Assembly (NCBI GenBank): GCA_030685015.1
Contig: JAUXWS010000009.1
Coordinates: 1-19,222, forward strand
Reading direction: 5' to 3'
DNA: 19,222 nt
Origin: a bacterium
GTDB taxonomy: Bacteria; CAIWAD01
Shown: positions 2,094 through 18,918 of the stretch, one piece after another
Layout of the letters: each line of letters starts with the position of its first letter
Position numbering within the stretch: the first letter of the stretch is position 1
Position numbers and translations under genes: made by a program
Notes under the pieces: model-generated
What the model was told of the DNA's origin: nothing
The model's database searches: none
The model's input: the letters and a program-made list of their open reading frames with translations, nothing else

Positions 2094-4061
2094 TTAGCTT
2101 ACTGTGGCCGGATCCCAATCCAGCGGACTGATCACGAAGAGCACGTCGCCGGGCAGCAAGGGTTCGTCGCTGTGGGGGTTGCCCAGGGTATGGCCGGCGC
2201 GGGTGATGGCCAGCACCGTCACCCCGTGCTGTGGCCGCAGGCCGCTGGTGGCGATGGTGCGCCCGACCAGGGGGGAGTCCGCCCCCAGGCGCAGGCTGTG
2301 GGTGCTGAGGTCGGGGATGTGGATGCGCGAGACGGGCACCACGGTGGCGTCCTTGGCGAAGCTGCGCGCCATGCGCCGCCAGTCGCCCCGCACCTCGCCG
2401 ATGAGGCGCTTGATGTCCTCCCGCGGCACCAGCATGCGGGCCAGGACGCGGGAGAAGACTTCGATGGAGACCTCCAGCTCGTCGGCGATGACTTCGTCGG
2501 CGCCCAGCGCGATGAGAGGCTCCACCTCCCGCAGGGTGCGGCTGCGCACCAGCAGGTAGGCGTCCGGGGCGATGCGCCGCGCCAATTCCACTATGCGCCG
2601 CGTGCCGGCCGGATCGTTGATGAGGACGACGACGGCGCGGGCCTTGTCGGCGTCCACGTGGCGCAGGATGGACTCCTGGGTGGCGTCCCCGTAGTGGATG
2701 GGCTCGCCCTGGGCGGCCGCCTCGCGCAGGATGCCGGCGTTGATCTCGAGGATGAGGTAGGGCAGGTCGGCCAGGCGGGCGGTTCGAGCCACGTTGCGCC
2801 CGGTCACGCCGAAACCGACGATGAGCACGTGGCCGACCTGCGGGTGGTCGGTCCCGGACGCGACATCCGCCACACCCCGCCGCGCCAGGCGGGCCAGGGG
2901 TGTGCGGGCCAGCCAGACGGCGCTGGGTGGTCCGGCGGCGATCAGGAGCGGCGTCAGCAGCATGGTGATCACCGCCAGATTGAGCACGGCCTGAAAGTGG
3001 TCGGGCAGAAGCAGGCCGGCCACCACGCCCGCCTTGGCCGCCACCAGGGAGAACTCCCCCACCTGTCCCAGGGCCAGACCGGACTGCACGGCGGGGCGCA
3101 GGGGCAGGCCCAGGGCCAGGGCCGCGGCGGTGGCCAGCAGTGGCTTCACCACCAGCACGCCAAGGGTGAGCAGGCCCAGCAGCAGCGGGTGTGCCAGCAG
3201 GTATTGGATGTCCAGCAGCATGCCGGTGGAGACGAAGAAGAGGCTGAGGAAGACGTCGCGGAAGGGCAGCATGACGGCCACGGCCTGGTTGGAGTACTCC
3301 GACTCCGAGATGATCAGCCCGGCCAGGAAGGCGCCCAGGGCCAGGGACAAGCCCAGGGCCTGGGTGAGGAGGGCGATGCCGATGCAGAGGAGGACGACGC
3401 CCAGGAGGAAGGCCTCGGGGCTGCGCGTGCGGGTGATGCGCTCCAGGATCCACGGCACGATCCACTTGTAGGCCGCGTAGGAGAAGGTGCCCACGCCCGC
3501 CACCCGCAGGAGCAGGCTCCCCGCCTGGGTCAGGCCGGTCCCGGTGGCGGCGCCTGCCAGCAGCGGCGCCAGCAGCATGACCGGCACCACGGCGATGTCC
3601 TGGTAGATGAGGGTGGCCAGGGCGGCGCGGCCGTGGGGCGAATCCAGCTCCGCGCGCTCCTGCAGCAGGCGCAGCACAATGGCCGTGCTGGAGAGGGCGA
3701 TGACGAAGCCCAGGTAGAGTCCCTGGGGCGGGGTGACCCCAGCCAGCAGGAGGCCGGCGCCCACGAGGCCCGCCGTCCCGAAGAACTGGACCGAGCCGCC
3801 CACCAGGAAGTGGCGCTTGAGCTGGGCCAGGTCGGCGAGGGAGAACTCGAGGCCGATGACAAAGAGGAGAAGGACGACGCCGATCTCGGAGAGCAGCTCG
3901 ATCTCGTGCACGCCGCGCACCAGGCCGAGGGCGTCGGGACCGGCCAGCACGCCCACCAGCAGCAGGCCGATGGGCATGGGCAGGCGCAGCCGGTGGCAGG
4001 CCAGGGCAGCCACCACCGCCAGCGCGAAGATGATCACGATGTCGGGCAGCAGGGCGGGCAT
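2094..4061 (-). CDS. KefB/YbaL-type monovalent cation/proton antiporter (CPA2) with RCK domains
   Basis: An inner-membrane exchanger of K+ or Na+ against protons, 655 residues. Residues 1-390 are strongly hydrophobic, about twelve membrane segments of the CPA2 type, with the family stretch LLSEIGVVLLLFVIGLEFSLADL and the probable ion-binding Asp in LIYQDIAVVPVM. Near residue 410 an RCK/TrkA-N domain begins with the Rossmann glycine motif VLIVGFGVTGRN and continues through YGDATQESIL. A TrkA-C domain occupies roughly 575-650 and contains EPLLPGDVLFVISP. This matches KefB/KefC/YbaL, but the ion and ligand cannot be told, so no gene symbol is given. I chose the ATG at 4061 because GGAGG sits 5 bases upstream; an ATG at 4073 is in frame but lacks such a site. 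The CBS remnant ends 18 bases upstream. Confidence 0.93.
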   Translation of the reverse strand: MPALLPDIVIIFALAVVAALACHRLRLPMPIGLLLVGVLAGPDALGLVRGVHEIELLSEIGVVLLLFVIGLEFSLADLAQLKRHFLVGGSVQFFGTAGLVGAGLLLAGVTPPQGLYLGFVIALSSTAIVLRLLQERAELDSPHGRAALATLIYQDIAVVPVMLLAPLLAGAATGTGLTQAGSLLLRVAGVGTFSYAAYKWIVPWILERITRTRSPEAFLLGVVLLCIGIALLTQALGLSLALGAFLAGLIISESEYSNQAVAVMLPFRDVFLSLFFVSTGMLLDIQYLLAHPLLLGLLTLGVLVVKPLLATAAALALGLPLRPAVQSGLALGQVGEFSLVAAKAGVVAGLLLPDHFQAVLNLAVITMLLTPLLIAAGPPSAVWLARTPLARLARRGVADVASGTDHPQVGHVLIVGFGVTGRNVARTARLADLPYLILEINAGILREAAAQGEPIHYGDATQESILRHVDADKARAVVVLINDPAGTRRIVELARRIAPDAYLLVRSRTLREVEPLIALGADEVIADELEVSIEVFSRVLARMLVPREDIKRLIGEVRGDWRRMARSFAKDATVVPVSRIHIPDLSTHSLRLGADSPLVGRTIATSGLRPQHGVTVLAITRAGHTLGNPHSDEPLLPGDVLFVISPLDWDPATVS

Positions 4062-4079
4062 CACCTCCTCCATGTGTCG

Positions 4080-4330
4080 TCAGCGCTCCGCCCGGGGCGG
4101 GGTTCCCGCGGCGCGGATGCGGGCAGCGCAGCACCGGCGCGCGGTCGCCTGCAGGTCGGCCACATTGTCCGCCTCGTCCACGATCTCGTTTCCCGGCAAG
4201 GTCTCGATCACGTCCTCCCGGGTGACGAGCCCCTTCGTCCCGCTGAACTCGTCCACCACCAGCGCGATGAGCTGCCACTTGTCCAGCAGACGCTCCAGCA
4301 GCCGGGGCAGGGGCATGGCTCGGGCAGAGC
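4080..4330 (-). pseudogene. C-terminal remnant of a CNNM/CorB-type (DUF21-CBS) protein
   Basis: The minus-strand frame here reads LPRLLERLLDKWQLIALVVDE, then GTKGLVTREDVIETLPGNEI and VDEADNVADLQATARR before a TGA at 4080. This is the second CBS domain and the tail of DUF21-CBS (CNNM/CorB) membrane proteins, which are linked to Mg2+ transport. The DUF21 membrane part and the first CBS domain are absent; upstream in the same frame lies only non-homologous sequence and then the DUF190 gene. Some residues look eroded, such as SGTK and ETLPG where GGTE and ETLLG are usual, as does the RCCAAR tail. An ATG at 4318 could start a 79-residue protein but has no ribosome binding site. I read it as a deletion relic; a small functional CBS protein is less likely. 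Confidence 0.75.
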
Positions 4331-4405
4331 GGGCTTCCGGGGCGGTCCTGCGGCCCAGGCCAGGGTGGCCGGATGCTTCATCTTGCCGGCGTCTCATTGC
4401 CTGAT

Positions 4406-4759
4406 TCAAGCACTTGCCCCACCGGCGCGTCCACTCGCGTAGTGCCGCACGTGGAGCTCCTCCACCGTCATCAGGCCGCCGTCCAGCATGCCCTCGATGA
4501 CAGGCAGCAGGGTTTCCACCCGCTCGGCCCGGTCCACGAAGACAAGCACCATGGGCAGGTCCTCGGAGAGGCGCAGGATGTGCGCGCTGTGGATGCGGCT
4601 GGCCTGGCCGAAGCCCTCCACACCGCGCAGCACGGTGGCGCCGGCGCAGCCCTCGCGACGCAGCAGCTCCACCAGGGCCGTGTGCAGCGGCTGGTGCCGC
4701 CAGCGGTCCGATTCCCCGAAGAAGACTGTCACCTTGAGCGCGCGTCCTTCCAAGGTCAT
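4406..4759 (-). CDS. DUF190 (PII-like) protein, CrcB-associated
   Basis: A cytoplasmic protein of 117 residues in the DUF190 family, whose fold resembles the PII signalling proteins and whose genes often neighbour crcB. Family hallmarks are VTVFFGESDRW near the start, the long run HTALVELLRREGCAGATVLRG (about residues 28-48), GFGQASRIHSAHILRLSEDLP (about 51-71) and a VEELHVRHY end. The ATG at 4759 is preferred over one at 4777 because AGGAGG lies 5 bases before it. The gene follows crcB by 73 bases on the same strand, so a role in the fluoride response, perhaps modulating or sensing for the channel, is inferred from context. No biochemical function is established for the family as far as I know. 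It appears intact. Confidence 0.9.
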   Translation of the reverse strand: MTLEGRALKVTVFFGESDRWRHQPLHTALVELLRREGCAGATVLRGVEGFGQASRIHSAHILRLSEDLPMVLVFVDRAERVETLLPVIEGMLDGGLMTVEELHVRHYASGRAGGASA

Positions 4760-4832
4760 GTTGTCCTCCTTTCCCATCTCTCGTCGGCCACCGGCGTGTC
4801 ACACGCCACCGCGCCGATGCGATGGCCGGGTC

Positions 4833-5213
4833 TCATATCATCCTCCCCAGGACCAGCCCCGCCACCGCTGCCGCCAGCCCCAGCAGCGGGCTGCCCAGCA
4901 GGTTGGCCGCACCCTGCAGCAGGCAGCCCTGCTGGATGAGGGCAAGGCTTTCCCAGGCCAGGGTGGAGAAGGTGGTGTAGCCCCCCAGCAGCCCCACCCC
5001 CAGGAAGAGGCGCAGCGGCGGTGACACGAGGTCGCGCTCGAGGGAAAGGGCCACCAGCAGGCCGAGCAGGAATGAGCCGCTCAGGTTGACGGCCAGCGTA
5101 TTCCAAGGAAAGGCGGCGCCCCAGCGCTGGGCCACCCAGCCGCCCAGGGCATAGCGCAGGCCGCCACCCAGGCCCGCTCCCGCCATCACCACCAGCAGAT
5201 TGAGCAGCCTCAC
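4833..5213 (-). CDS. crcB: CrcB/FluC fluoride ion channel
   Basis: A small membrane protein of 126 residues that exports fluoride as an antiparallel dimer. The family marks are clear: GLGGGLRYALGG near the N-terminus, FPWNTLAVNLSGSFLLGLL (about residues 40-58) with the conserved Asn, and GGYTTFSTLAWE (about 77-88), within four hydrophobic segments. The first Phe of the usual TTFSTF box is present but the second is Leu. The start is a GTG at 5213 that overlaps the recD stop by four bases (GTGA) and is preceded by a purine-rich GGGAGGAGG stretch, so translation is coupled to recD. Because the upstream gene overlaps, there is no room for a fluoride riboswitch directly in front, and I saw none elsewhere. 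Confidence 0.95.
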   Translation of the reverse strand: MRLLNLLVVMAGAGLGGGLRYALGGWVAQRWGAAFPWNTLAVNLSGSFLLGLLVALSLERDLVSPPLRLFLGVGLLGGYTTFSTLAWESLALIQQGCLLQGAANLLGSPLLGLAAAVAGLVLGRMI

Positions 5214-13926: not shown

Positions 13927-15675
13927 ATGCCCCGCCGTTCCCTCCGCCGCCTCTACCAGGACGAGTTCGCCGGCTACCGCCCCGACACCTTCCGCCAGGA
14001 TCTGCTCGCCGGCCTCACCGTGGCCGCCGTGGCCCTGCCCCTGGCCCTCGCCTTCGGCGTGGCCTCCGGCGCCAGCGCCGCAGCGGGCCTGGTCACGGCC
14101 ATCATCGCCGGCCTGGTGATCGGCGCCCTCTCCGGCGCGCCCTACCAGATCTCCGGCCCCACCGGCGCCATGAGCGCCATCCTCATCCTGCTCGCCCAGC
14201 GCCATGGCCTGGAGGGCGTCCTGCTGGCGGGACTCCTCTCGGGGGGCATGCTCCTGGCGATCGGGCTGTTGCGGCTGGGACGCTTCATCGCCTTCATCCC
14301 GGCCCCCGTCATCACCGGCTTCACCAGCGGCATCGCCCTCATCATCGCCATCGGCCAGCTGGACGCCTTCCTGGGCATCCGCACGGCCGAGGCCGACTCG
14401 GCCATCGCCAAGCTGCTGGTGCTGGCGCAGGGCGGCTGGACGCCCCAATGGCAGGCGGTGGCCACCGGCCTGCTCGTGGCCCTGCCCATGGCGCTCTGGC
14501 CCGCCCGCTGGGGCAACCGCCTGCCGGCCAGCCTGGCGGGCCTCGCCCTCGCCAGCTCGGCGGCCGGCCTGTTCCACTGGCCGGTGGCCACCATCGGCGA
14601 GATTCCCGGCTCCCTCCTCCTGCCCGATCGGCTCAGCCTGGCCACGCTGCCCTGGGGGCGCCTGGACGAGTTCCTGGCACCGGCCATGACCATCACGGCC
14701 CTGGGCGCGGTGGAGTCGCTCCTCTGCGGCATGGTGGCCTCCAACATGACCGGCGTGCGTCTGCAAGCCAACCAGGAGCTGGTGGCGCAGGGCGTGGGCA
14801 ACCTGCTGCTGCCCTTCTTCGGTGGCGTGCCCGCCACCGCCGCCATCGCGCGGACCAGCGTGGGCATCCGCTCCGGGGGGCGCACGCGCTTGACCAGCAT
14901 CCTCCACTCCCTCTTCCTGCTCTGCTCCATGTGGCTGCTGGCGCCCCTCATGGGCCGCATCCCGCTGGCGGCGCTGGCCGGCGTCCTGCTCATCACGGCC
15001 TGGCGCATGAATGAGTGGGCGGCCATCCGCTTCCTCTTCGGGCACCGCTTCAAGTCGGCCATCCTCGCCTTCTCCGTCACCCTGGTGGCCACCATCGCCC
15101 TCGACCTGACCCAGGCCATCCTCATCAGCACGGCCCTGGCCGGCGCCATCTACATCAGCCAGAGCGCCGCCCTCCACGTGGAGGTGCAGCCCATGGACCG
15201 CGCCAAGCTGGCCGCCCGCGGCATCGAAGTGGAGGGCGACTGTCCGCACATCCAGGTGGCCTTCGTCACCGGGCCGCTCTTCTTCGCCGCCGTGGGCAAC
15301 TTCAACGAGGCCTTCGCCAAACTGGGCCGCTGCCACGCCCTCATTCTCAGCATGCGCGGCGTGCCGCTGGTGGACACGGCGGGCCTGGAGGCCATCCACC
15401 GCCTGCGGGACCACCTGCGGGAGCAGGACGGCCACCTGATGCTGGCGGGGGTCCACGACCGCGTGAGGGTCATGATGGAGCGGGGCGGCATCCTGGACGC
15501 CGTCGGCCGGGAGAACCTGTTCTGGAGCAGCGACCAGGCCATCGTCGAGGCGGAGCGGCGGGGCTGCGCCCATTGCGCCAGGCCCGCCCGCTGGACCTGG
15601 CACGGCGTGGCCGGCACAGGCAGCACGGTCTACGAGGATCCGGCCGACGACCCCATGTTCGAAGACGAGGCATAG
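13927..15675 (+). CDS. SulP-family anion transporter with C-terminal STAS domain
   Basis: An inner-membrane transporter of inorganic anions (sulfate, bicarbonate or similar; the substrate cannot be read from sequence), 582 residues. The membrane domain starts near residue 26 with RQDLLAGLTVAAVALPLALAF, and has PYQISGPTGAMSAI (about 75-88, the SulP signature region) and FIPAPVITGFTSGIALIIA. Alternating hydrophobic segments run to about 420. A cytoplasmic STAS domain occupies about 438-545, including MRGVPLVDTAGLEAIHRL at the usual phosphorylation/nucleotide-fold position. A short acidic tail follows. AAGGA lies 7 bases before the ATG. The gene is alone on this strand, divergent from recC, and its last 46 bases overlap the 3' end of the minus-strand GIY-YIG gene. 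Confidence 0.93.
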   Translation: MPRRSLRRLYQDEFAGYRPDTFRQDLLAGLTVAAVALPLALAFGVASGASAAAGLVTAIIAGLVIGALSGAPYQISGPTGAMSAILILLAQRHGLEGVLLAGLLSGGMLLAIGLLRLGRFIAFIPAPVITGFTSGIALIIAIGQLDAFLGIRTAEADSAIAKLLVLAQGGWTPQWQAVATGLLVALPMALWPARWGNRLPASLAGLALASSAAGLFHWPVATIGEIPGSLLLPDRLSLATLPWGRLDEFLAPAMTITALGAVESLLCGMVASNMTGVRLQANQELVAQGVGNLLLPFFGGVPATAAIARTSVGIRSGGRTRLTSILHSLFLLCSMWLLAPLMGRIPLAALAGVLLITAWRMNEWAAIRFLFGHRFKSAILAFSVTLVATIALDLTQAILISTALAGAIYISQSAALHVEVQPMDRAKLAARGIEVEGDCPHIQVAFVTGPLFFAAVGNFNEAFAKLGRCHALILSMRGVPLVDTAGLEAIHRLRDHLREQDGHLMLAGVHDRVRVMMERGGILDAVGRENLFWSSDQAIVEAERRGCAHCARPARWTWHGVAGTGSTVYEDPADDPMFEDEA

Positions 15676-16595
15676 TCCCCGCCCCCCAGCTGTTGCCGCC
15701 ACTCCGCCTCCAACTGCGCCAGGCGGCGGCCGCGCTGGGCCATGCTTTCGTTGGCGTCCTCCAGGATGGCAAGTACTTCCAGCCGGAAGGCCACCGCGCC
15801 GTCCCGCGACCAATCCTCCTGCAGGGCCGCGCAGCGATGCACGCCCAGTTCCAGCTGCGCCCGCTGGGAGCGCAGACGGCTGGCCACGGCGCCGGCCCGC
15901 CCCAGGAAGCGCCGACCGCTGGGCAGGTGGGTGATGCAGTAGACGCCGGCCTGGCCGGCGGGCCGCGCCTCCCGGCCGCCCGCGCCGGACTCCGCCCGCC
16001 CCTCGTCCCAACCCTCCCGCAGCCAGGAGGGACCGGCCGGCCGCCAGGCCTCGTTCAGGCGGTAGACCTGTTGGTCGCGCCGCAGCAGGCCCAAGTCCAC
16101 CAGCTCCCGCCGCACGGTGCAGTAGTCGGGGAAGTGGGCGGCGAAGAGTTCGTTGACCTCGCGCTCGGGGTAGCTGCGGCCGGGTTCGAGCAGGGCGGCG
16201 AACTCCTCGAGGAGCAGGCGGCGCTTCTTCTGCTGCACGGGCAGGTGTTCGACCCGGCCATGGGGCGCGAAGGTCTGCAGCACGCGGCGGCAGTAGGCGG
16301 CCAGGCGCTCCCGCTCCCGCCGGTCCTCCTGCGCGTCGCCGGCCACCAGCTCCAGCAGGGGCCGCTCCAGCACCGGCCAGCACACCGAGTAGACGGAGAA
16401 GTACTGCTCGCGGCGCTTCTCCACCAGCCCGCCCTCCTCCAGCTTCTTCAGGTGGAAGGCGAGGGTCGAGGGCGCCAGGCCGAGGCGCCCGGCCAGTTCC
16501 TCGGCGTAGTGTGGGCGCTCCAGCAGCGCCCGTAGCGCCGCCAGCCGCGCCGGGTCGGCCAGGGCCTTGGCCACCAGCAGTCCATTGGCTTCCAT
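15630..16595 (-). CDS. ArsR-type HTH, DUF2087 and GIY-YIG three-domain regulator
   Basis: A 321-residue protein with three parts. Residues 10-75 form an ArsR-like winged helix: LADPARLAALRALLE, then LAGRLGLAPSTLAFHLKKLEEGGLV, with no metal-binding cysteine motif in the recognition helix. Residues about 125-190 fit DUF2087 (RRLLLEEFAALLEPGRSYPEREVNELF and VRRELVDLGLLRRD). After a Gly/Ala/Glu-rich linker, residues about 214-280 form a GIY-YIG nuclease-like domain: GVYCITH for GIY, RRFLGRAG for YIG with Phe in place of Tyr, then SRLRSQRAQL and FRLEVLAILED. GIY-YIG domains attached to ArsR- or LuxR-like regulators are a known class without a settled role. The start at 16595 has GGAGG 4 bases upstream; an ATG at 16622 is less likely. 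Possible jobs are a DNA-damage or defence-linked regulator, or a repressor with a non-cleaving domain. Confidence 0.85.
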   Translation of the reverse strand: MEANGLLVAKALADPARLAALRALLERPHYAEELAGRLGLAPSTLAFHLKKLEEGGLVEKRREQYFSVYSVCWPVLERPLLELVAGDAQEDRRERERLAAYCRRVLQTFAPHGRVEHLPVQQKKRRLLLEEFAALLEPGRSYPEREVNELFAAHFPDYCTVRRELVDLGLLRRDQQVYRLNEAWRPAGPSWLREGWDEGRAESGAGGREARPAGQAGVYCITHLPSGRRFLGRAGAVASRLRSQRAQLELGVHRCAALQEDWSRDGAVAFRLEVLAILEDANESMAQRGRRLAQLEAEWRQQLGGGDYASSSNMGSSAGSS

Positions 16596-16610
16596 CAGGC
16601 CTCCAAAACT

Positions 16611-16617
16611 GATTCGA
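16611..16617 (+). promoter_or_regulatory. single GATTCGA half-site in the leader of the GIY-YIG regulator gene
   Basis: A third copy of the heptamer found in the upstream palindrome, 16 bases ahead of the chosen start and just upstream of its ribosome binding site (16600-16604). Occupancy here could block initiation. A weak -10-like TATGCT sits on the minus strand between the two sites (16633-16628). Confidence 0.5.
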
Positions 16618-16655
16618 TGCACACGGAAGCATATTTGCCGGGGCGAGGCAAGACA

Positions 16656-16675
16656 GATTCGAATTTTCTCGAATC
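16656..16675. promoter_or_regulatory. palindromic operator GATTCGA-N6-TCGAATC
   Basis: A perfect 7-base inverted repeat with a 6-base AT-rich centre, 61 bases upstream of the ArsR-like gene start. This size and symmetry suit a winged-helix dimer, so autoregulation by the downstream protein is the simplest reading. The surroundings are otherwise GC-rich, which makes the AT-rich motif stand out. Confidence 0.65.
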
Positions 16676-16848: not shown

Positions 16849-16892
16849 TTGCGGCGCTATCCACAGGGCACTATGTTACCGCTCGGGAACAT
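16849..16892 (+). promoter_or_regulatory. hipBA promoter and overlapping inverted repeat
   Basis: A -35-like TTGCGG (16849-16854), a 17-base spacer and a -10-like TATGTT (16872-16877) precede hipB. The 20-base imperfect palindrome ATGTTACCGCTCGGGAACAT (16873-16892, one mismatched pair in 8-base arms around GCTC) covers the -10 box and the first bases of the hipB ATG. It is the likely HipB operator. The predicted transcript start near 16884 leaves a leader of about seven bases. Confidence 0.6.
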
Positions 16893-17124
16893 GAACGTGC
16901 TTGATCCAACTCAGCTGGGCGCCGCCATCCGCGCAAGGCGCAAACATTTGCGGGTCACCCAGAGGGATCTGGCCTTAACCTGCGGGATAGGCGTGCGCTT
17001 CATTGTCGATCTGGAGAAAGGCAAAGCCACGTGCCAGATTGGGAAAACCCTCCACGTCCTTAGGGCGCTTGGTTTGAGGCTAGACATCACACAACAGTCT
17101 AACCTAAACAATGAAGCCGTTTAA
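16891..17124 (+). CDS. hipB: HipB-type antitoxin, XRE family
   Basis: A 77-residue DNA-binding antitoxin (E. coli HipB has 88). It has the HipB layout: LGAAIRARRKHLRVTQRDLAL (about residues 8-28), the helix-turn-helix TCGIGVRFIVDLEKGK (about 29-44), then TLHVLRALGLRLDI. It would bind HipA, hold it inactive and repress the operon through the palindrome that overlaps its own start. The ATG at 16891 is chosen because family homology begins there. An in-frame ATG at 16873 lies within the -10 box, and a much longer upstream frame shows no homology. There is no ribosome binding site, consistent with a nearly leaderless transcript. The stop is two bases before hipA. G+C is lower than in the core genes. 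Confidence 0.92.
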   Translation: MNVLDPTQLGAAIRARRKHLRVTQRDLALTCGIGVRFIVDLEKGKATCQIGKTLHVLRALGLRLDITQQSNLNNEAV

Positions 17125-17126
17125 CC

Positions 17127-18377
17127 ATGAGCGGCCTCAACGTATACTTCAACTCACAAATCGTCGGACACTTACAGCAGGACAAAAGCGGGCTTCTGAA
17201 GTTTACTTACAGTGAATCCTGGTTGAAGAATCCCGCAGCCATACCACTTTCCCGCAGCCTGCCACTTCAGTCGGGGGCATTCCCAGGGAAGCAGGCCAGA
17301 CCCTATTTTGCCGGGATTTTGCCTGAGCAGGGGCCACGCCGGCGCATCGCCGAGATCCTTGGGATCAGTGAGTCGAATGACTACGCCCTGCTCGAGCGGA
17401 TGGGAGGGGACTGTGCCGGGGCGATCAGCCTCTTGCCTGTTGGCCATGTCCAGACGGACCAGGGCTCATCGGCCTGCCGCCCCTTGTCGGAGTCAGAATG
17501 GAGCCGGATTGTGGCGGAGCTGCCACGCAATCCACTGCTGGCGGGGACAGACGGACTTCGCTTGTCGCTGGCCGGAGCGCAGGACAAAGTGCCCGTCATT
17601 CTGGAAAATCAGGCGCTTTGCTTACCCCTCGAGCAGATGCCAAGCACGCACATCCTGAAGCCGGAGCCCGACCGCTTTCCGGGTCTTGCCAGCAATGAGA
17701 CCTTCTGCATGATGCTTGCCCGTGAAATGGGGCTGGATGTCGCGGAGGCGGTCTTTCTCATGATCGGCGACAAAGCCTGTGTGCTGGTGAAGCGATACGA
17801 CCGACGCGTGGACGAGGCCGGCGGCATCGACAAGCTCCATCAGGAGGACTTCTGTCAGGCGCTGGGACATCCGCCGGAGAAGAAATACCAGGAAGAGGGC
17901 GGGCCGACACTGTCGGATTGCCTCTCGCTGCTTCAGGAGTGGTCCACCGCCCCGGCCCTCGATGTGCCCCGCTTCATACGCGGCTTGATTTTCAACGTGC
18001 TGATCGGCAATGCGGACGCGCACGCGAAGAACCACGCACTGCTCTACAGCTCCGGGGAGCGGCGGCTGGCGCCGCTCTATGATCTTGTCTCCACCCTTGT
18101 CTGGCCGGAGTTGTCGACGCGCTCCGCCATGAGAATCGGCCACAGCAGATCCATCGACGTGTTCGAGATGTCCGACTGGATGGACATGGCGAAGAGCTCC
18201 GGCCTTGGCTGGCCCATGATCCGCATCCGGGTCGCGGAGAGCTGCGCGGAGCTTCTGGCCAAACTTGATCATGTCCGGCGACAGGCTCGCGCGCTTGATG
18301 CCGGGATGGTCGAGCGGCTGGCCACCCTGATCCGGGAGCGGGCAGGCCGGCTGCAGAAGGCCTTCACCTCTCTTTAG
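17127..18377 (+). CDS. hipA: HipA-type serine/threonine kinase toxin
   Basis: A 416-residue kinase toxin (E. coli HipA has 440). In E. coli HipA phosphorylates glutamyl-tRNA synthetase and induces dormancy; other HipA proteins hit other tRNA synthetases, so the target here is unknown. The N-terminal subdomain is present (LNVYFNSQIVGHL to MGGDCAGAISLLP, residues 4-103), so this is not the split HipS/HipT form. LRLSLAGAQDKVPV (about 144-157) carries the autophosphorylated-Ser/ATP-loop region. The catalytic loop is GNADAHAKNHAL (about 293-304) and the metal-binding DFG-like site is LYDLVST. All key residues are present, so the toxin looks active. It follows hipB by two bases without a strong ribosome binding site, implying translational coupling. 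Confidence 0.95.
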   Translation: MSGLNVYFNSQIVGHLQQDKSGLLKFTYSESWLKNPAAIPLSRSLPLQSGAFPGKQARPYFAGILPEQGPRRRIAEILGISESNDYALLERMGGDCAGAISLLPVGHVQTDQGSSACRPLSESEWSRIVAELPRNPLLAGTDGLRLSLAGAQDKVPVILENQALCLPLEQMPSTHILKPEPDRFPGLASNETFCMMLAREMGLDVAEAVFLMIGDKACVLVKRYDRRVDEAGGIDKLHQEDFCQALGHPPEKKYQEEGGPTLSDCLSLLQEWSTAPALDVPRFIRGLIFNVLIGNADAHAKNHALLYSSGERRLAPLYDLVSTLVWPELSTRSAMRIGHSRSIDVFEMSDWMDMAKSSGLGWPMIRIRVAESCAELLAKLDHVRRQARALDAGMVERLATLIRERAGRLQKAFTSL

Positions 18378-18642: not shown

Positions 18643-18918
18643 TCACTGACTGCGAATGCAGATCTCCTGAAAATTGGACTCCATTTTGCTCCAGAACAAA
18701 GCTGGGATTTCCGTCACTCCTTCCAGATGTCTGCAGGTTTCTGCCGAGAGTGCCTCCTCACCTTTGAGAATGGTCGCCAGATGCCGCAGGTCCCATCCCA
18801 GCCGTAGTGCTAAGTCCGCCGCGGAATGGCCCTGTTCTTCCATCCACTCGCGCAGGATGTCACCAGGTGCGACGCGGTAGTTCGGCTGAAACTGGCTACA
18901 GCCCGATGTCATGCTCAC
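18643..18918 (-). CDS. orphan XRE/HigA-type antitoxin-like regulator
   Basis: A 91-residue helix-turn-helix protein. After FQPNYRVAPGDILREWMEEQG (residues 10-30) come HSAADLALRLGWDLRHLATILKGEE (the DNA-binding region) and LSAETCRHLEGVTEIPALFWSKMESNFQE, the standard ending of HigA/VapI-type antitoxins. The sequence looks full length but diverged, and no toxin gene lies next to it: downstream is the gene-free stretch and upstream only a 17-codon gene stub before the IS3-family end. The GTG at 18918 overlaps that stub's stop as GTGA, suggesting former translational coupling; an ATG at 18912 is the alternative. It may act as a stand-alone repressor or an anti-addiction factor. Confidence 0.8.
   Translation of the reverse strand: MSMTSGCSQFQPNYRVAPGDILREWMEEQGHSAADLALRLGWDLRHLATILKGEEALSAETCRHLEGVTEIPALFWSKMESNFQEICIRSQ

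Follow-up and report, generated by a model that had tools for sequence, protein, structure and literature searches.

A predicted autoregulating ArsR-type regulator with conserved operator dyads and a degenerate GIY-YIG domain

The regulator gene and its surroundings

The window, as we call the whole 19,222-nucleotide stretch of bacterial DNA analysed here, carries on its minus strand a gene (15630..16595) for a 321-aa protein, P0001, that joins an ArsR-type winged helix, DUF2087 and a GIY-YIG-fold domain. Its likely start is the ATG at 16595, which has GGAGG ahead of it (a ribosome binding site found by eye at 16600..16604, minus strand) and agrees with the starts of orthologues; it was preferred to the GTG at 16622, the mechanical start call for this frame.

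A SulP-family transporter gene (13927-15675; Sulfate_transp 5.2e-66, STAS) is convergent with the regulator gene, the two 3' ends overlapping by 46 bases (15630-15675). Divergent from the regulator, an HTH gene and, after it, a gene for a HipA-like kinase (16891-18377; HipA_C 2.6e-52, Couple_hipA 5.9e-26) make up a hipBA-type toxin-antitoxin pair, and a lone HTH_3 gene lies at 18643-18918. The rest of the window holds an IS4/5-type transposase at 38-929 that is spread over two overlapping frames (DUF4096, 38-565; DDE_Tnp_1, 486-929) and resembles frameshift-using elements, genes for a HigB-like toxin and its HTH antitoxin (1296-1912), and consecutive Na/H exchanger-TrkA, DUF190 and CrcB (fluoride channel family) genes at 2094-5213, a row adjoined by a RecD gene and RecB/RecC-sized frames.

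The three-domain polypeptide that a sequence-only reading of this DNA had proposed was confirmed. The ArsR-type DNA-binding domain (residues 12-61; 16413..16562, minus strand) was assigned to ArsR/SmtB by profile (HTH_5 1.2e-11, 44.8 bits against a cut-off of 22; HTH_20 1.3e-10) and by fold, and DUF2087 (residues 114-179; 16059..16256, minus strand) by PF09860 (1.2e-21, 77 bits against a Pfam gathering threshold of 22.4). The NCBI metalloregulator model NF033788 scored 54.4 bits against a cut-off of 55, and no ELCVCDL-type metal-ligand motif was seen by eye in helix 3. The GIY-YIG-fold domain with its degenerate active site (residues 215-313; 15657..15953, minus strand) was assigned by profile, fold and alignment: as a single sequence it fell under the Pfam cut-off, and a single-sequence search of the PDB matched the ArsR part only, while a profile of 18 relatives matched the I-TevI catalytic domain in the PDB at 8.5e-13, with the GIY, YIG and Arg27 region ungapped and the sole further match at chance level.

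An AlphaFold model built with 33 sequences (mean pLDDT 86.7; pTM 0.49, so that the placement of units relative to one another is unreliable) comprised the ArsR winged helix, the DUF2087 unit, a linker and the GIY-YIG fold. Residues 1-84 matched the ArsR structure 6j05_A (Z 13.8) among solved structures. DUF2087 was modelled as three helices and a two-strand wing, a second winged-helix-like unit, and the linker (residues 185-214; 15954..16043, minus strand), mostly of low confidence with pLDDT <50 at 192-211, is probably flexible. Residues 215-313 matched I-TevI 1ln0 (Z 13.2, rmsd 2.0, 89/92 residues), Foldseek agreed, and modelling the domain separately left its secondary structure unchanged. 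The C-terminal domain is thus a genuine GIY-YIG fold, shared with the I-TevI catalytic domain (1ln0, 1mk0) and its superfamily, and the outcome that the earlier reading had named as fatal to itself, some other fold at this end, did not materialise.

Putative operator dyads in the leader and across the class

GATTCGA does occur three times ahead of the gene, at 16611-16617, at 16656-16662 and, inverted, at 16669-16675. On their own, three occurrences in 19 kb are not striking (31 of 200 shuffles give as many), and 6% of shuffled 130-base leaders contain some 7-bp interrupted palindrome; the case for an operator is made by conservation of the dyad across orthologues, together with the fact that GATTCGA-N6-TCGAATC occurs once in the whole genome.

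Two of the copies form a predicted upstream operator dyad, GATTCGA-GAAAAT-TCGAATC (16656..16675, minus strand, at -78), exact to TTCGA-N6-TCGAA. Described earlier as a perfect palindrome, it does hold two inverted copies, as 7-bp arms interrupted by N6. The remaining copy makes up the right half of another, degenerate dyad, GCTTCCG-TGTGCA-TCGAATC (16611..16630, minus strand, at -33; two mismatches to TTCGA-N6-TCGAA), the predicted downstream operator dyad. What had been called a three-site operator is thus better read as two dyads flanking a promoter: the sites exist, and with the start at ATG 16595 the copy at 16611 falls in the 5' leader, upstream of GGAGG. Between the dyads is a probable weak promoter, CTGTCT-N17-TATGCT (16627..16656, minus strand; 7 of 12 consensus bases), where orthologues have, for example, TTGACA-N17-TAATAT (genome G422; 10 of 12). 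The weakness of this promoter, and a stricter general scan that returned none in the window, count against reading P0001 as a repressor.

Five fusion orthologues, from another phylum and about 40% identical to the window protein, allowed the leaders to be aligned as the sequence-only reading had suggested. Both dyads occurred at matching places in all five (6/6 leaders with the window). TTCGA-N6-TCGAA was exact in five of the six and one base off in the other, with exact matches at spacing 6 only; the exact dyads were equalled in 0 to 4 of 2000 shuffles and the one-mismatch case in 21 of 2000. In the orthologues the upstream dyad is weaker (-80 to -82, two to three mismatches) and the downstream dyad strong (-27 or -28; four exact, the fifth with one mismatch), promoter-like hexamers lie between them, and the right half of the downstream dyad, CATCGAA, is identical in the DNA alignment of all six leaders. 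The dyad centres are 45 bp apart in the window and 52-55 bp in the other fusion leaders, so phasing is not strictly conserved. That four of the five orthologues belong to one genus counts against the repressor reading. Conservation of TTCGA-N6-TCGAA points to what is expected of ArsR/SmtB regulators, an interrupted dyad overlapping the gene's own promoter.

The ArsR family mostly represses, and a strong dyad across the start site in five orthologues is in a repressor position; both argue against an autoregulated activator or dual regulator, for which the upstream dyad would recruit polymerase and the downstream dyad would limit it. We consider this alternative unlikely, although the window's perfect dyad is the upstream one, which abuts the -35 and could be an activator position. 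The relative BtmL of the bottromycin cluster, the one ArsR-like DUF2087 protein that has been studied, is described as a positive modulator that raises transcription of one gene (PMC7113386); it likewise favours activation and counts against repression.

The dyads extend beyond the fusions. Of 34 ArsR-DUF2087 genes without GIY-YIG, 11 have an exact TTMGA-N6-TCKAA upstream where shuffles predict 0.05, and 18 have it with at most one mismatch where 0.87 are expected, although the set includes related loci and the counts are not of independent events; spacings of 2-5 and 7-10 gave 0 or 1 exact matches each. The sites are therefore a property of the ArsR-DUF2087 class and not of the fusion, and the nuclease-like domain is not what they are for. 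Counting against the repressor reading, the leaders of the closest non-fused ArsR-DUF2087 relatives (L039, L040, L041, L096 and L097) hold no TTMGA-N6-TCKAA, unlike many more distant ones. Together, the orthologue leaders and the wider class back the earlier claim that the protein has its own operator, and autoregulation of the P0001 gene is, at the level of sequence, well supported.

Other targets and roles were considered. TTMGA-N6-TCKAA matches this genome only in the leader of the gene itself and at one position within a coding region; a regulon elsewhere in this genome was therefore rejected, and the lack of further exact matches outside coding DNA favours the autoregulating repressor. 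A hairpin role for the leader was rejected too (DNA fold z -0.62). An upstream transport-like gene, kept in the orthologue genus and a candidate target as a conserved neighbour, is absent from the window, and control of the divergent hipBA-like pair is unlikely, the dyad being ~215 bases from that start.

A class-wide operator TTMGA-N6-TCKAA of DUF2087 regulators was not found in the limited literature searched, and a query for an ArsR family operator with TTAGAT gave no matching papers there. The motif offers a testable operator code for DUF2087, a large regulator class; relative to that limited literature, the class-wide operator and the subfamily-wide active-site decay described below are new here.

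The GIY-YIG active site and the question of cutting

An alignment with the I-TevI segment took in 29 sequences of this GIY-YIG subfamily (6 ArsR fusions and 23 others). The window protein keeps the GIY tyrosine as Y219, R27 as R240, H40 as H253 and E75 as E296; the positions of Y17, H31 and N90 are F230, Q244 and A309, and P0001 therefore differs from I-TevI in having no equivalents of the YIG tyrosine, H31 and N90. The earlier observation that phenylalanine replaces the YIG tyrosine was thus correct. Across the subfamily this position is Phe or Leu in 28 of 29, and the sole member with Tyr is without H40 and E75. Of the 29, the window copy alone still has R27, and 28 have lost it; the GIY tyrosine and the glutamate are mostly retained and Asn90 often. 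The canonical set (GIY Tyr, YIG Tyr, Arg27, Glu75, Asn90) is complete in 0/29, the window copy reading Y, F, R, E, A.

In human ANKLE1, changing the YIG tyrosine to Phe lowered the rate 3500-fold and the histidine to Ala 150-fold, and an Asn-to-Asp change left no detectable activity (PMC10287932). R.Hpy188I is an active GIY-YIG enzyme with Lys in place of the YIG tyrosine (PMC2630997), so an altered YIG alone is no proof of inactivity; cutting by P0001 is unlikely because the losses add up.

The sequence-only reading had speculated that the repressor also uses its GIY-YIG domain to nick or cut its own operator or a related site. The fold is genuine, the window copy holds the equivalents of the GIY tyrosine, R27, H40 and E75, and retention of R240 and E296 makes residual chemistry possible, which counts against regarding the domain as a retired nuclease. 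The losses at the YIG tyrosine, H31 and N90 in this copy, the incomplete canonical set throughout the subfamily and the presence of the dyad before genes that have no GIY-YIG domain nevertheless make operator cutting hardly credible to us. Judged by its residues, P0001 most likely does not nick DNA. The prediction that follows for a widespread, regulator-attached GIY-YIG subfamily is that it is non-cutting, with a role in sensing or binding.

Relatives, linked forms and proposed working

Among the genomes searched, full ArsR-DUF2087-GIY-YIG fusions are rare: one in this genome, four in one genus and one in a neighbouring genus, the last a Candidatus Krumholzibacteriia record (L032). No relative of P0001 was found in viral contigs. 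The two genus relatives searched gave no match at E 1e-20, which makes horizontal gain of the fusion gene plausible. The same absence would suit a decaying gene, as would the loss from the window copy of the orthologue motif xxYKxxxxxAGVYxIRN (YK ahead of the domain) and of N90. Decay is nonetheless very unlikely, as the frame is open over 321 codons, the model is well folded, the operator is intact, and the HTH and DUF2087 domains score well over their family cut-offs.

Another phylum, that of genome G329, has fusions of a LuxR-like HTH, DUF2087 and GIY-YIG (L042, L100, L103, L108 and L109), with another, L043, in a further genome; these six carry the same degenerate residues as P0001, from which they differ in an HTH that is LuxR-like rather than ArsR-like. 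In the same phylum, a DUF2087 gene is followed directly by a stand-alone degenerate GIY-YIG gene (L105, L114, L115, L116, L118 and L120), and this adjacent pair represents the system in two-gene form. The fused-or-adjacent pattern suggests that the DUF2087 and GIY-YIG units work together and that the HTH has been exchanged; a functional pairing is probable. No paper dealing with DUF2087 together with GIY-YIG was found in the literature searched. We take COG3860 to be the DUF2087 region. A wHTH-COG3860-GIY-YIG fusion of Symbiobacterium thermophilum, reported in 2006 (PMC1564403), shares with P0001 and the six LuxR-type proteins the order of HTH, middle domain and GIY-YIG in one chain; like those six, it differs from P0001 in its LuxR-like HTH. 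BtmL (PMC7113386) and Deinococcus KDR_0233m (PMC11219805) have, like P0001, an ArsR-like winged helix and then DUF2087, but no GIY-YIG domain, and the part available for BtmL gives no operator. P0001 can therefore be described as a known architecture in an ArsR-type version, its GIY-YIG domain joined to a regulator whereas I-TevI-type domains are joined to homing DNA-binding modules.

The domains, the fold, the conserved dyads and the residue losses are established from sequence, and from them we infer that the protein binds as a dimer, that it represses instead of activating, and that it has a role in sensing. On balance we regard P0001 as probably a stand-alone autoregulating ArsR-type repressor whose GIY-YIG domain has ceased to work as a nuclease. 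A dimer would bind TTCGA-N6-TCGAA, one per dyad, and the two dimers, one adjoining the -35 on its upstream side and the other covering the transcription start, would keep the gene's own promoter shut until a signal releases them. DUF2087 and the GIY-YIG-fold domain at the C-terminus would act as a sensing or interaction module, the latter retained, after cutting was lost, for contact with a signal or with DNA.

A more tentative extension, which we hold as a possibility rather than an expectation, is that this regulator subfamily as a whole has converted its GIY-YIG fold from a nuclease to a sensory or DNA-structure-reading domain which does not cut and which governs the HTH. A cysteine two positions after H253 (C255) is present in 6/6 ArsR fusions and in 0/23 of the other sequences, which also sets the ArsR fusions apart from the LuxR-type ones, and C159 in DUF2087 is invariant among the fusions; C255, near the invariant H253 and perhaps together with C159, could form a thiol or metal switch.
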